38,104 nt of DNA, taken from assembly GCA_016935315.1 (NCBI GenBank), contig JAFGRD010000021.1, positions 1 through 38,104 on the forward strand, in the 5' to 3' direction. This DNA comes from Pirellulales bacterium (GTDB lineage: Bacteria; Planctomycetota; Planctomycetia; Pirellulales; Thermoguttaceae). This document shows, one piece after another, positions 22,801 through 27,775 of the stretch. Under the pieces are notes generated by a model. The model was not told where the DNA came from. It searched no databases and worked only from the letters and a program-made list of their open reading frames with translations. How positions within the stretch are numbered: position 1 is the stretch's first letter; each line of letters opens with the position of its first letter. Made by a program: the position numbers and the translations under genes.

Positions 22801-24396
22801 TCAGGAGGATTTAAGCACGTCCAGCAGGTCGCGGGCCGCCGAAACCGGGTCGGCCGCAGAGGTAATCGCACCGCTGACGGCGATCCGGCCTATGCCCGTC
22901 GAGAGCACTTCGGAAACGTTCTCCTGAGCGACTCCACCGATCGCAAAGGCCGGAAGCCGAATTTCGGCGGCGACGGCCCGCAATAGCGCCACGCCCGGGA
23001 ACTGCTCGAACCGTTTCGTGCCGGAGGGAAACGTCGGGCCCACGCCGATATAGCTGGCCCCATCGAGGACGGCCTGCCTGGCCTGTTCGATCGAATGGGT
23101 CGACACGCCGATCAGCGTTGTGGGACCGACGATCGTGCGGACGTCTTTCACCGAAAGCTCATTCTGTCCCACGTGGACGCCGTCGGCCCCCGCCAAGGCG
23201 GCCAGATCGGGACGATCGTTCACGACGAACAACGTCCGGCTGCCGGCAGTCCACTCGCGCACCATGCGCGCACGCTGAAGCAGGCGGCGGTCGTCGAGCT
23301 GTTTGTCGCGAAGCTGGACGACGTCGACTCCGACCTCCACCAGCGAACGGACCAGGTTGCCCAGTGCCTCCGGCGACGGGCATCCGTCGATCAGCACGTA
23401 GAGTCTTGCGTGCCCGAGGCGATCGAGACTCGTGCGCGTGATCTCCACCGCTCGCTGCAGCGTGTAGCTTCGATAACGCAACTGCTCCAACTCGGCGGCC
23501 ATGTCGACATCGAGCAGTTTACCGAACTCTTCCAGGCTTCGTAGCCCCTCTTGCAGCCGCGCCAAATTGGCCGCCAGCACGGCGACAGGATCCCTGCGAA
23601 ACTGCTCGGAGGGCGTGGCGACCGCGGTTCCCACGTCGGCCCGGGTTTCCCGGGCACTGAGACGATGCTCGGTCGGCACCCGTCGCAACGCGGCGGCCAG
23701 ATCGTGACGCATCTGCTTGCACAAGCCGGTCAAGTGGCGATCGTCGAGGATGAAGCGGACATAGTCTTCGACGGCGCGCAACCCTTCGCGGGCACGATTG
23801 GCCGCGGCGTCGAGGATGCGCAGCGTGCCAATCCCTTCATCGTTTCTCGCGGGCGAAAGAGGCTGTGGCCACTTCGCAGCGGGGGGAGGCGACGGAACCG
23901 TGTTTTCAGACAGACGGGGCTCTTCATCCATTGGCAGCGATTCCACGGCCAGGGGCCCCGGCTGGTGTCCGTAGAGCCGATGAATCTCGGCTTCCAAGGT
24001 GTCCGGGTCGAAACCCCGCTGCCGCAGCCATGCCGACGCTTCACACCCAGCGGCCACCAACCCCAGTAGGAGGTGTTCCGTGGCCAACTCCAACGGCCGG
24101 GGGTAATCAGCCAACCGTTCGCAGGCAGCCGCCAGGCACAATTCTGTATCGAGGGAAAACGGCGGCAGAACCCCTCCGTCAGCGGGGCCTCTCGGGGACA
24201 ATCCGGTCCACTGGCGCTGCACGGCCTGTGTGTCGATCTGACGGGCGGACAGCATGATCGCCGCGCGGCATTCCGGCTCGGCCAATAATCCCAAGAGCAG
24301 CGCGGGCGGCTCCAACTCGTCAGATTCCGCACGACTGTTCCACTGGGCAGCAGAAATCAACGCTCGGCGGGCACCGGGAGTGAACTCGTATTGCAT
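22801..24396 (-). CDS. thiE: Clp_N-ThiD2-ThiE fusion: thiamine-phosphate synthase with HMP-P kinase-like and ClpC-type N-terminal domains
   Basis: 531 residues in three parts. Residues 1-145 look like a Clp_N double repeat: FTPGARRALISAAQ with ELEPPALLLGLL (6-38), then LELATEHLLLGLV (102-114). Residues about 188-325 match ThiD2, the HMP-phosphate kinase family often fused to ThiE (LRILDAAANRAREGLRAVEDY, here split as LRILDAAAN 192-200 and REGLRAVEDY 203-212, then MRHDLAAALR). Residues about 330-531 are ThiE, joining HMP-PP and thiazole phosphate into thiamine phosphate, with QLRDK (361-365), VNDRPDLA (392-399), DGVHVGQ (405-411), GVSTHS (430-435), GVGPTFPSGTK and AIGGV (485-489) all intact. 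The ATG at 24396 places Clp_N right at the start; the frame is open upstream to 24534. The clpC operon is divergent. The Clp_N part may bind Clp adaptors or tune stability; that is inference. Confidence 0.88.
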   Translation of the reverse strand: MQYEFTPGARRALISAAQWNSRAESDELEPPALLLGLLAEPECRAAIMLSARQIDTQAVQRQWTGLSPRGPADGGVLPPFSLDTELCLAAACERLADYPRPLELATEHLLLGLVAAGCEASAWLRQRGFDPDTLEAEIHRLYGHQPGPLAVESLPMDEEPRLSENTVPSPPPAAKWPQPLSPARNDEGIGTLRILDAAANRAREGLRAVEDYVRFILDDRHLTGLCKQMRHDLAAALRRVPTEHRLSARETRADVGTAVATPSEQFRRDPVAVLAANLARLQEGLRSLEEFGKLLDVDMAAELEQLRYRSYTLQRAVEITRTSLDRLGHARLYVLIDGCPSPEALGNLVRSLVEVGVDVVQLRDKQLDDRRLLQRARMVREWTAGSRTLFVVNDRPDLAALAGADGVHVGQNELSVKDVRTIVGPTTLIGVSTHSIEQARQAVLDGASYIGVGPTFPSGTKRFEQFPGVALLRAVAAEIRLPAFAIGGVAQENVSEVLSTGIGRIAVSGAITSAADPVSAARDLLDVLKSS

Positions 24397-24533: not shown

Positions 24534-25139
24534 ATGATGAAGCGCAAGATGCCTTGGGGTACGTACTTGTGGCCGGGGTTGCCCCAGGCTTGGGTAGACG
24601 GCAGTTGGTCCGCCCTGGCAGTTGCGGTTTCGGTGGCGGCCCTGCTGAACCTGGCGTTGTTGAGCAGCTTTGTGTGGACCGAACTGGTTGCCTGGCAGGT
24701 GCGTAACGGCCTATGGATCGCCTTGTGCGGGGTTTGGCTCGGGGCAGGAGTCATGTCGGCCGTTTGGACCCGCCGGCGGGCTTTCGGATCGGAGGAGGAT
24801 CGGTCCGGCGTTGATTTCGCCGAGGCGGTTCAGTATTACCTGACGGGAGACTGGTTTCGGGCCGAGCGCGAACTTCAAAAGCTGCTCGAGAAAGACGCCC
24901 GAGATGCGGAGGCACGCTTGACGTTGGCCACGCTCTTGCGGCACACGGGCCGGCTCGACGAAGCGGAAGGACAGTTGCAGCGGCTTTCCCGGCTCGAGGG
25001 CGCCGGGAAGTGGGAATTGGAGATAGGACGCGAACGGGAGTTGTTGGCCGACGCGCGAACGAAAGTACCGACCGAGGATGAAGCAGCGGCCGGCCCCGGG
25101 GCCGCCGATCCGTCGGATGAGGTTCGACCGGCGGCCTGA
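24534..25139 (+). CDS. Membrane protein with TPR-like tail, unknown function
   Basis: A 201-residue protein. Two hydrophobic helices (about 25-46 and 55-76) form an inner-membrane hairpin, followed by a cytoplasmic part with about two TPR-like helix pairs: AVQYYLTGDWFRAERELQKL (98-117) and DAEARLTLATLLRHTGRLDEAEGQL (about 123-147). The C-terminus is acidic and low-complexity. GGAAGGA precedes two consecutive ATG codons. It ends 80 bp before clpC with no terminator between, so the two genes are probably cotranscribed. The gene is not recognised beyond the TPR; a scaffold or adaptor role near Clp is a guess from context. Confidence 0.75.
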   Translation: MMKRKMPWGTYLWPGLPQAWVDGSWSALAVAVSVAALLNLALLSSFVWTELVAWQVRNGLWIALCGVWLGAGVMSAVWTRRRAFGSEEDRSGVDFAEAVQYYLTGDWFRAERELQKLLEKDARDAEARLTLATLLRHTGRLDEAEGQLQRLSRLEGAGKWELEIGRERELLADARTKVPTEDEAAAGPGAADPSDEVRPAA

Positions 25140-25219: not shown

Positions 25220-27775
25220 ATGTACGAGCGATTTACCGACCGGGCCAGGAAGGTCATGCAATTGGCCAACCAGGAAGCACAGCGCTTCAACCACGAATAC
25301 ATCGGAACCGAGCATATTCTGCTGGGGCTGATCAAGGAGGGCAGCGGAGTAGCGGCCAACGTGCTGAAGAACCTCGACGTCGATCTCCGCAAGATCCGGC
25401 TGGAAGTCGAAAAGCTCGTCCAGAGCGGACCCGACATGGTGACCATGGGGAAGTTGCCCCAAACGCCGCGGGCAAAGAAGGTCATCGAGTATTCCATGGA
25501 GGAAGCCCGAAACCTCAACCACAACTACGTCGGAACGGAACACATCCTGCTGGGGTTGTTGCGCGAACAGGAGGGCGTGGCCGCCCAAGTCCTCATGAAC
25601 CTGGGCCTGAAGCTGGAAGAGGTCCGCGAGGAAGTGCTGAACCTGCTCGGCCACGGCGTGGAAGGGCCCGAGGCCACCGAGCGCGGCGGGGGAATCGGAC
25701 CCGGCGCGGGCACGCAGCGCAGCGGCAAGTCCAAGACTCCGGCCCTGGACAGCTTCGGACGCGACCTGACCGAATTGGCCCGACAGGGCAAGCTCGATCC
25801 GGTCATTGGCCGCGAGACCGAAATCGAGCGGACCATGCAGATCCTCAGCCGGCGCACCAAGAACAATCCCGTCCTGCTCGGCGAGGCCGGCGTCGGCAAG
25901 ACGGCCATCGTCGAAGGCTTTGCTCAGCAGGTTGTCGAAGGCAACGTTCCCGAGCTCCTGATGGAGCGCCGGATTGTCGTGCTCGACCTGGCGATGATGG
26001 TCGCCGGCACGAAGTACCGTGGCCAGTTCGAGGAGCGGATCAAGGCGGTGATGAACGAAGTCCGCCGGGCGAAGAACACGATCCTGTTTATCGACGAGTT
26101 GCACACGCTGGTCGGTGCCGGCGGCGCCGAAGGGGCCATCGACGCCAGCAACGTGCTGAAGCCGGCCCTCTCCCGCGGCGAAATCCAGTGCATCGGCGCC
26201 ACCACACTCGACGAATACCGCAAGTACATCGAGAAAGACACCGCGTTGGACCGCCGCTTCCAACTGGTGATGGTCGAGCCGTCGACCAAGGGGGAAACGA
26301 TCGAAATACTTCGCGGGTTGCGCGATCGCTACGAGCAACACCATCACGTGCAGATTACCGACGACGCGGTCGAGGCGGCCGTCGAGCTTTCCGGCCGCTA
26401 CATCACCGGCCGCTGCCTGCCCGACAAGGCCATCGACGTGATCGACGAAGCCGGTGCCCGGATCCACCTGAAATCGATGACCCGGCCGCCCGACTTGAAG
26501 GAGATCGACGAGGAGGTCGAGACCCTCAATCGGGAAAAAGAGGAGGCCGTGGCCAATCAGGATTTTGAGAAGGCCGCGTCATTGCGCGATCAGGCCGACA
26601 AGCTGAAGAAGAAGAAACAGACCATCACTCACGAGTGGCGGGAGAAATCGCGCGAAACCGACGGCGTGGTGGATGAAGACGTGATTGCCGAGGTCGTCTC
26701 GAAAATCACCGGCATTCCGCTGACGCGGCTCTCGACCGAAGACTCGATGCGGCTGATGCAGATGGAAGACGATTTGCACAAGCGGGTGATCAGCCAGCAC
26801 GAGGCGATCAAGTCGATCTCCAAGGCGGTCCGCCGCAGCCGCAGCGGGTTGAAGGACCCCAAGCGGCCCACCGGGTGCTTCGTGTTTGCCGGGCCGACGG
26901 GCGTCGGCAAGACGCTGTTGGCCAAGGCCCTGGCCGAATTCATGTTCGGCGACGACGATGCGCTGATCCAAATCGACATGAGCGAGTACATGGAAAAGCA
27001 CAACGTCAGCCGGCTGATCGGTGCCCCGCCGGGATACGTCGGCTTCGAGGAAGGTGGCCAGTTGACCGAGAAGATCCGTCGCCGGCCGTACGCGGTCGTG
27101 CTGCTGGACGAGATCGAGAAAGCGCATCCTGATTGCTTCAACATGCTCCTGCAGGTGATGGAGGAGGGCCGCCTGACAGACAGTTTCGGTCGCAACGTGG
27201 ACTTCCGCAACACGATCGTGATCATGACCACCAACGCCGGGGCCGAGGCGATCAAGAACGAAGCCTCGTTCGGCTTCCAGAAGCCCGACGACGATGCGTC
27301 CTACGAGAGCATGAAAGAGCGGGTCCAGGAACAAATCGAAAAGGTCTTCCGTCCCGAGTTCCTTAACCGCGTCGACGACGTGATCGTCTTCCGCCACCTG
27401 ACCAACGACGACCTGAAAGACGTGATTGATCTGGAGTTGGGCAAGGTGCGCCAGCGGCTCGAAGAGCGAGGTCTGAGCCTCGTGCTTTCCGACGAGGCCA
27501 AGAAAGTACTGATCAAGAAAGGCTCCAACCTCGATTTCGGCGCCCGGCCGTTGCGCCGCGCGATCGAGAACTACGTCGAGGACCCGCTTTCCGAGGAACT
27601 GCTCAAAGGTGAGTTCCAGGGTATGGACACGATCACCGTGGAGGTCAAAGAGGTCGGCGGCAAGAAGCAGTTGTTCTTCGAAGGCTCGGTCGAAGAGCCG
27701 GCAAAAGCACCCCCGCCGGTCGGCGCCGCGGCTGAAGGAGGTTCCGGCAAGGATTCGCCCGCCGGAGCCGGCTAG
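25220..27775 (+). CDS. clpC: ATP-dependent Clp protease ATP-binding subunit ClpC
   Basis: An 851-residue AAA+ unfoldase that feeds proteins to ClpP. Order: Clp_N double repeat (1-145, with [15 protein letters not shown] and [16 protein letters not shown]); NBD1 with Walker A GEAGVGKT (221-228), Walker B ILFIDELH and [13 protein letters not shown]; the M-domain with a UVR motif (about 428-466), which marks ClpC rather than ClpA or ClpB; NBD2 with GPTGVGKT (558-565) and [13 protein letters not shown]; and a small C-terminal domain. FGF (684-686) sits where the ClpP-docking (I/L/V)G(F/L) loop is expected. The tail after about 820 is Ala/Pro/Gly-rich. No McsA, McsB or CtsR neighbours are seen. 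It is linked upstream to a TPR membrane protein, and a divergent gene carries a second Clp_N domain. Confidence 0.97.

Follow-up and report, generated by a model that had tools for sequence, protein, structure and literature searches.

Why does an enzyme of thiamine synthesis carry the N-terminal domain of a Clp unfoldase, and does its position beside clpC mean that it works together with the Clp system? These questions are raised by a gene in a 38,104-nucleotide stretch of DNA (contig JAFGRD010000021.1, positions 1 to 38,104, referred to below as the window) from a Pirellulales bacterium. The gene occupies positions 22801..24396 of the minus strand, starts with an ATG at 24396 and encodes a 531-residue protein with full-length relatives. 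A Pfam scan of this protein detected Clp_N, ThiD2, and TMP-TENI domains in this order, all above cut-off. The ThiD2 domain (PF17792, 131 bits) spans residues 193-315 (23452..23820, minus strand) and the ThiE (thiamine phosphate synthase) domain residues 333-511 (22864..23400, minus strand; PF02581, 175.2 bits; TIGR00693, 174.4 against a cut-off of 145.1). In addition, the NCBIfam thiamine phosphate synthase model PRK02615 matched residues 190-529 with a score of 362.9 (equivalog cut-off 335). According to the available text of PMC12345177, ThiD2 phosphorylates HMP monophosphate. These family scores, which bear out an earlier note that placed a ThiD2-ThiE enzyme behind the Clp_N part, predict that the ThiD2-ThiE part is an active thiamine phosphate synthase. 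An upstream TTG start (24534, giving a 577-residue frame) was not favoured, since relatives start at the position of ATG 24396 with an invariant M1, an argument that is partly circular because the starts of the relatives were picked by eye. No TPP riboswitch was matched in the window by Rfam at gathering thresholds, and no CIRCE element was found there with up to three mismatches to the consensus.

The same note had read residues 1-145 as a two-part Clp_N domain. Clp_N (PF02861) scored 30.9 bits (cut-off 20.7) at residues 104-141, which correspond to the second repeat; the first repeat, at 14 bits, was below cut-off in this single-sequence profile search. A phmmer search of the PDB aligned residues 4-139 to 8b9o (E 1.6e-8) and 8ad9 (3e-6), both ClpC2 domains and the best sequence matches of the fused N-domain. 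When a 16-row alignment of fused domains was compared with the N-domain of the window's ClpC, hhalign returned a probability of 97% over 143 columns. An AlphaFold2 model of residues 1-145 (pLDDT 93.6) contained eight helices and resembled the N-domains of ClpC, ClpT, ClpB, and ClpA with Z of about 12-16. The profile match, the PDB hits, hhalign, and the model agreed on a two-repeat, all-helical Clp_N fold, which was assigned to residues 1-142 (23971..24396, minus strand). In a full-length model, N-domain and enzyme were both confident, while pLDDT fell below 50 at residues 145-178 and 180-184; pTM was 0.68, and the tool did not report an interdomain error. Residues 143-184 (23845..23970, minus strand), with low pLDDT and low identity compared with the N-domain, are a predicted disordered tether. 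As modelled, the N-domain hangs on a flexible tether of about 40 residues from an ordinary ThiD2-ThiE enzyme.

The fusion is not confined to this genome. A search with the fusion protein gave matches in 38 of 40 genomes (own genome included), and a profile built from 23 fusions in 383 of the 396 genomes of the window's order. By hand count of the rows, the match began within the first 53 of the 541 model positions in at least 57 genomes of the order; in at least 8 further genomes it began at positions 68-103. All 391 genomes of the phylum matched somewhere, some perhaps via ClpC alone. Among 60 fetched planctomycete loci, hand-picked to span groups rather than at random, 39 encoded an N-terminal extension scoring above 20 bits with the fused-domain profile, 20 did not (3 of these fall outside the class) and one (L229) scored 2.6 bits. 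Some of the 39 fused loci come from genomes used to train the profile; the 14 from families f21, f22, and f23 do not. The 39 loci represent 14 families, and the wider search of the order brought the total with the fusion to 16 family groups, all within one class (f1, f2, f4, f5, f6, f9, f10, f11, f13, f14, f15, f17, f19, f21, f22, and f23). Of the best 80 named loci, 18 scored above 20 bits for the N-domain, all of them from Planctomycetota, including Pirellulales MAGs, a Thermogutta MAG, an Isosphaeraceae MAG, a Gemmataceae MAG, and the complete genome of strain Pan216. The PRK02615-type ThiD2-ThiE enzymes of cyanobacteria, Phycisphaerae, and other groups share the domain order of the fusion enzyme and score above cut-offs; however, among these 80 loci the N-domain score was never positive at those from cyanobacteria, Phycisphaerae, Fusobacteriota, or Campylobacterota.

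Recurrence of full-length fusions in separate genomes and assemblies led to rejection of chance or an assembly error, the latter having been raised in the earlier note, as their origin. In a Pfam scan of ten fused proteins, Clp_N was above cut-off in eight, below it in the Gemmataceae protein (17.1 bits) and absent from that of locus L026, so that annotation by Pfam alone undercounts the fusion. The protein is a new combination of the known parts Clp_N, ThiD2, and ThiE that spans a class. No description of this architecture, of which the earlier note knew none either, was found in the open-access papers searched. Two variants stood apart: L229 (genome G626) has a 224-codon extension before ThiD2 that could be a highly diverged N-domain or something different, and in genus g9 (L195 and L196, open frames of 687 and 734 codons) a long insertion splits the profile match into one piece per N-domain repeat.

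Other proteins with a Clp_N fold provide points of comparison. The plant proteins ClpT1 and ClpT2, which bind the Clp core, share the fold (ClpT2 was the top row with Z 15.9, tied with others), but are stand-alone chloroplast proteins. Mycobacterial ClpC2 resembles the fusion in having Clp_N without an AAA+ motor; unlike the fusion, it is joined to no enzyme in the description given in the available part of PMC10030653, according to which it binds DNA and cyclomarin, sequesters the latter and represses its own gene. A ClpC2-like decoy or repressor was not recognized in the fusion protein, which includes an enzyme and in which the Pfam scan detected no DNA-binding family. Compared with the ClpC N-domain (PF02861), the fused domain shares the fold, the two repeats, and the positions T7 and E106, but has lost E32, R9, and K85, is one residue shorter near position 117 and belongs to a protein without an AAA+ part. 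With the ClpB N-domain it has in common the fold, the T and TEH residues, and the missing E32, whereas R11 and E42 are its own and it lies on a separate side of the tree. A 228-residue protein with an HTH_17 domain and two Clp_N repeats, similar in layout to mycobacterial ClpC2, is encoded elsewhere in the window's own genome (G000, C52:10081-10764, minus strand; L004:1192-1878, L292). As a candidate class-wide partner of the fusion it was rejected, because its HTH part was left uncovered by the matches listed in the other 29 genomes.

Phylogenetic analysis did not uphold the view that the N-domain is akin to ClpC in particular. In a phylum-wide tree, 47 fused domains occupied a side of their own (support 89, unstarred). 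For the main family of fused domains, the median tree path was 4.77 to ClpC and 4.69 to ClpB, both longer than the path of 2.47 between ClpC and ClpB. With phylum-wide sampling, 38 of the 47 domains preferred the ClpB profile and 9 that of ClpC; an earlier figure of 46 out of 47 for ClpB was discarded as unfair, ClpC having been sampled in one class and ClpB across the phylum. Descent of the main family from the neighbouring clpC was first thought likely and was dropped once ClpB had entered the trees. Within the class, the ClpC N-domain is almost unchanged, whereas the fused N-domain evolves far faster. Grouping with ClpC was observed for none of the 47 fused rows and for the two rows of family f9. 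All trees were quick searches without bootstrap, and those on fast evolution and with ClpC from one class carried warnings of long branches that meet. The tree with one-class ClpC and the two that included ClpB omitted the long-branched rows L229, L192, and L224, as well as L009, which duplicates the window's clpC; L182, from the same genome as L018, was also left out of the ClpB-containing trees and the residue counts. ClpC rows were thinned to 12 in the first ClpB-containing tree and comprised 20 phylum rows plus 2 in the last.

The enzyme has its own history. A ThiD2-ThiE tree with 54 fused and 33 unfused rows (L229 being entered as fused by extension length alone) contained 14 changes of state, at least 4 of them forced by starred branches, and the nearest rows to the window included unfused ones. 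At a sister locus of the window (L024:2540-2684, genome G003), a 43-residue stump of the N-domain (residues 1-43) precedes an intact ThiD2-ThiE frame, and the stop of the stump overlaps the new start of this unfused enzyme. If the draft assembly, in which an error at this locus is possible, is right, L024 represents loss of the domain by deletion caught midway. As read from these genes, the N-domain is an element that was lost repeatedly while the enzyme was kept, which indicates that it is not essential.

Family f9 points to the reverse event. In one of its genomes (L175, G032), the fused N-domain is 58% identical to that of the window's ClpC and a divergent clpC adjoins the gene. In a second assembly (L259, G049), cut by contig ends, the N-domain preceding ThiD2 is likewise ClpC-like, and about 1 kb off on the opposite strand lies another ClpC-like frame, of 844 codons. 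In the tree with phylum-wide ClpC, both f9 domains nested inside ClpC (22 rows, support 98, starred). When ClpC was sampled from one class, a grouping of f9 with the fused domains of the order was not rejected and scored slightly better than the free tree, the p-AU of 0.56 belonging to this one-class tree and not to the phylum-wide one. The f9 domain keeps both glutamates. Apparently, f9 took a fresh N-domain from ClpC once, as judged by sequence relationships.

Among same-genus pairs, median dN/dS was 0.187 for the N-domain, 0.407 for the tether, and 0.152 for ThiD2-ThiE (84 pairs, of which 42 had a usable omega, with many dS values at or near saturation). The low omega of the N-domain indicates purifying selection and hence that the domain is kept by selection. 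In the pair G314/G023, the N-domain, tether, and enzyme were 97, 48, and 91% identical, with omega values of 0.021, 0.839, and 0.080, respectively. In 72 of the 84 pairs, identity was lower in the N-domain than in the enzyme. By hand count of the rows, it was more identical than the tether in 46 pairs, namely 46 of 47 in the window's order and 0 of 37 in family f21, where the tether is short and itself conserved; in genus g147, the short tether was more identical than the N-domain in 36 of 36 pairs. Across genera, N-domains were 20-48% identical to that of the window (alignment A3). Such fast drift would suit a loose or changing partner and also a mere structural role.

The reading that we prefer, and to which we assign a probability of about one half, is that the fused Clp_N is a tethered docking domain for a partner in trans and is dispensable for catalysis. 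The Clp_N surface of the N-domain would bind a protein or peptide, and this binding would place, stabilize, or regulate the enzyme; the N-domain itself would stand outside catalysis, and the enzyme would work without it. This reading draws on sequence and structure prediction, namely the fold, the selection on the domain, the disordered tether, the absence of the domain from relatives in which the enzyme is retained, and the f9 domain derived from ClpC. It also fits the substrates, adaptors, or ligands that known Clp N-domains bind according to the accessible portions of PMC12583610 and PMC10030653. Alternatively, the domain could aid folding, solubility, or oligomer assembly only, with no partner in trans. 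Conservation of the fold during rapid sequence drift would agree with such an accessory, as would the repeated loss of the domain from a retained enzyme. However, a tether of this length parts the domain from the enzyme and the full-length model gives no hint of packing between them. Moreover, if the domain were a neutral solubility tag, its replacement by the N-domain of ClpC in f9 would be unexpected, as would near-invariant charged residues: R11 was present in 35 of 35 fused domains of the order and in 15 of 15 from other families, and E42 in 34 of 35 and 15 of 15, while host ClpB has neither. A purely structural role therefore seems to us somewhat unlikely.

As given in the available text of PMC12583610, the pArg1 site of ClpC includes T7 and E106, the pArg2 site includes E32, and the resting state is anchored by R9 and K85. 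These numbers were mapped to the window's ClpC on motifs and were checked against published primer texts only. The residue counts cover 35 fused domains from the order and 15 from other families (L229 among the latter), 50 in all, f9 being excluded. The T7 position held T in 34 of 35 and T or S in 15 of 15 (overall T in 45 and S in 4 of the 50), and E106 was E in 33 of 35 and 11 of 15 (44 overall); the window's domain keeps both, as T6 and E107 in its own numbering. In contrast, the E32 position was E in 1 of 35 and 0 of 15 (P in the window), the R9 position was never R (0/50) and the K85 position was K in 2 of 50. Host ClpB, too, has the same T and TEH residues and is without E32, so that their retention in fused domains is not specific to phosphoarginine; it may be a general Clp_N pattern, and a reading of the kept pair as a phosphoarginine site was weakened accordingly. 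ClpB mutants at T7, D103, and E109 have reportedly been made; a literature search found no paper on them.

The same residues are the starting point of a proposal that we regard as very unlikely, in which the enzyme is regulated by a small phosphorylated molecule, such as phosphoarginine or a thiamine precursor, that binds in a pocket formed around T6 and E107. Their match to the phosphoarginine-binding pocket of ClpC and the precedent of ClpC2, described in the accessible part of PMC10030653 as a Clp_N protein that acts as a ligand-binding repressor and sponge, speak for it. Yet the residues are the same in host ClpB, and the flexible tether offers no obvious allosteric route.

Coupling to Clp proteolysis was the explanation favoured by the earlier note. 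In this scheme, the domain would bind ClpC adaptors or marks (McsB/phosphoarginine, ClpS), and the enzyme would either be delivered to ClpC or compete with its N-domain. ClpS was detected in 18 of the 20 genomes searched (the window's own among them), fused and unfused alike, and so was a protein of PF00217, the family of the arginine kinase McsB. The presence of both makes an adaptor link possible, and retention of T7 and E106 in most fused domains and the ClpC-derived f9 domain with its two glutamates point the same way. Against this, the main family has lost the E32, R9, and K85 positions nearly throughout, its T and TEH residues recur in host ClpB, and it is equally far from ClpB and ClpC; the idea of shared ClpC adaptors is not supported by these counts. 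Furthermore, the Clp N-domain is a receptor and is not known to be a degron.

Gene neighbourhood does not strengthen the case. As the note had stated, clpC (25220..27775, plus strand, 851 residues) begins about 0.8 kb away and diverges from the fusion gene, but its use as evidence of coupling failed. In the panel, considering loci with upstream sequence of at least 3 kb, a divergent clpC lay within 4 kb at 16 of 34 fused loci and at 13 of 18 unfused ones; these fractions are not rates, as the panel was not random and some fused loci were picked because clpC was missing from the 1.5 kb flank. At named loci, the corresponding numbers were 6 of 14 fused and 6 of 53 unfused, the latter being largely from other phyla and classes. 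L229 (2.6 bits) and the named locus L125 (2.1 bits) were taken as fused in these counts by extension length alone. Since clpC also adjoins unfused genes, its proximity is no evidence of coupling and was rejected as a sign of function; the pairing is a shared gene order that is independent of the fusion. Altogether, we consider Clp-coupled proteolysis or competition unlikely.

In unfoldases, Clp N-domains are known to do the gripping, and in rare cases they are known as free-standing decoys or sensors; here, one is built into an enzyme of vitamin synthesis in sixteen family-level groups of one class. A bolder version of the docking reading, which we hold to be improbable, is that the class-wide B1 enzyme carries its own Clp-type receptor, with which it directly binds Clp adaptors or proteins that are unfolded or phosphorylated on arginine. 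If true, vitamin B1 synthesis would be tied to protein quality control, and selection would have favoured this tie again when f9 acquired its new N-domain from ClpC. These genomes offer a natural experiment, in that some close relatives have the domain and others lack it, and the enzyme occurs with either of two different N-domains; the role of a Clp N-domain without a motor becomes directly testable.

Two further features of the locus were observed. Just past the N-domain, a motif of approximately P-[LI]-[DA]-V-[DEQ] occurs in the window (23941-23961) and at the same place in L218, L220, L223, and L225; in genus g147, conservation of the stretch exceeds that of the N-domain. It is possibly a short docking motif. 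Between the fusion gene and clpC lies an open reading frame for a TPR-like protein (24534..25139, plus strand), relatives of which were detected at 9 of 34 fused panel loci, at 11 of 18 unfused ones and at none of the four f21 loci listed. The N-terminal part of this TPR-like protein is hydrophobic.
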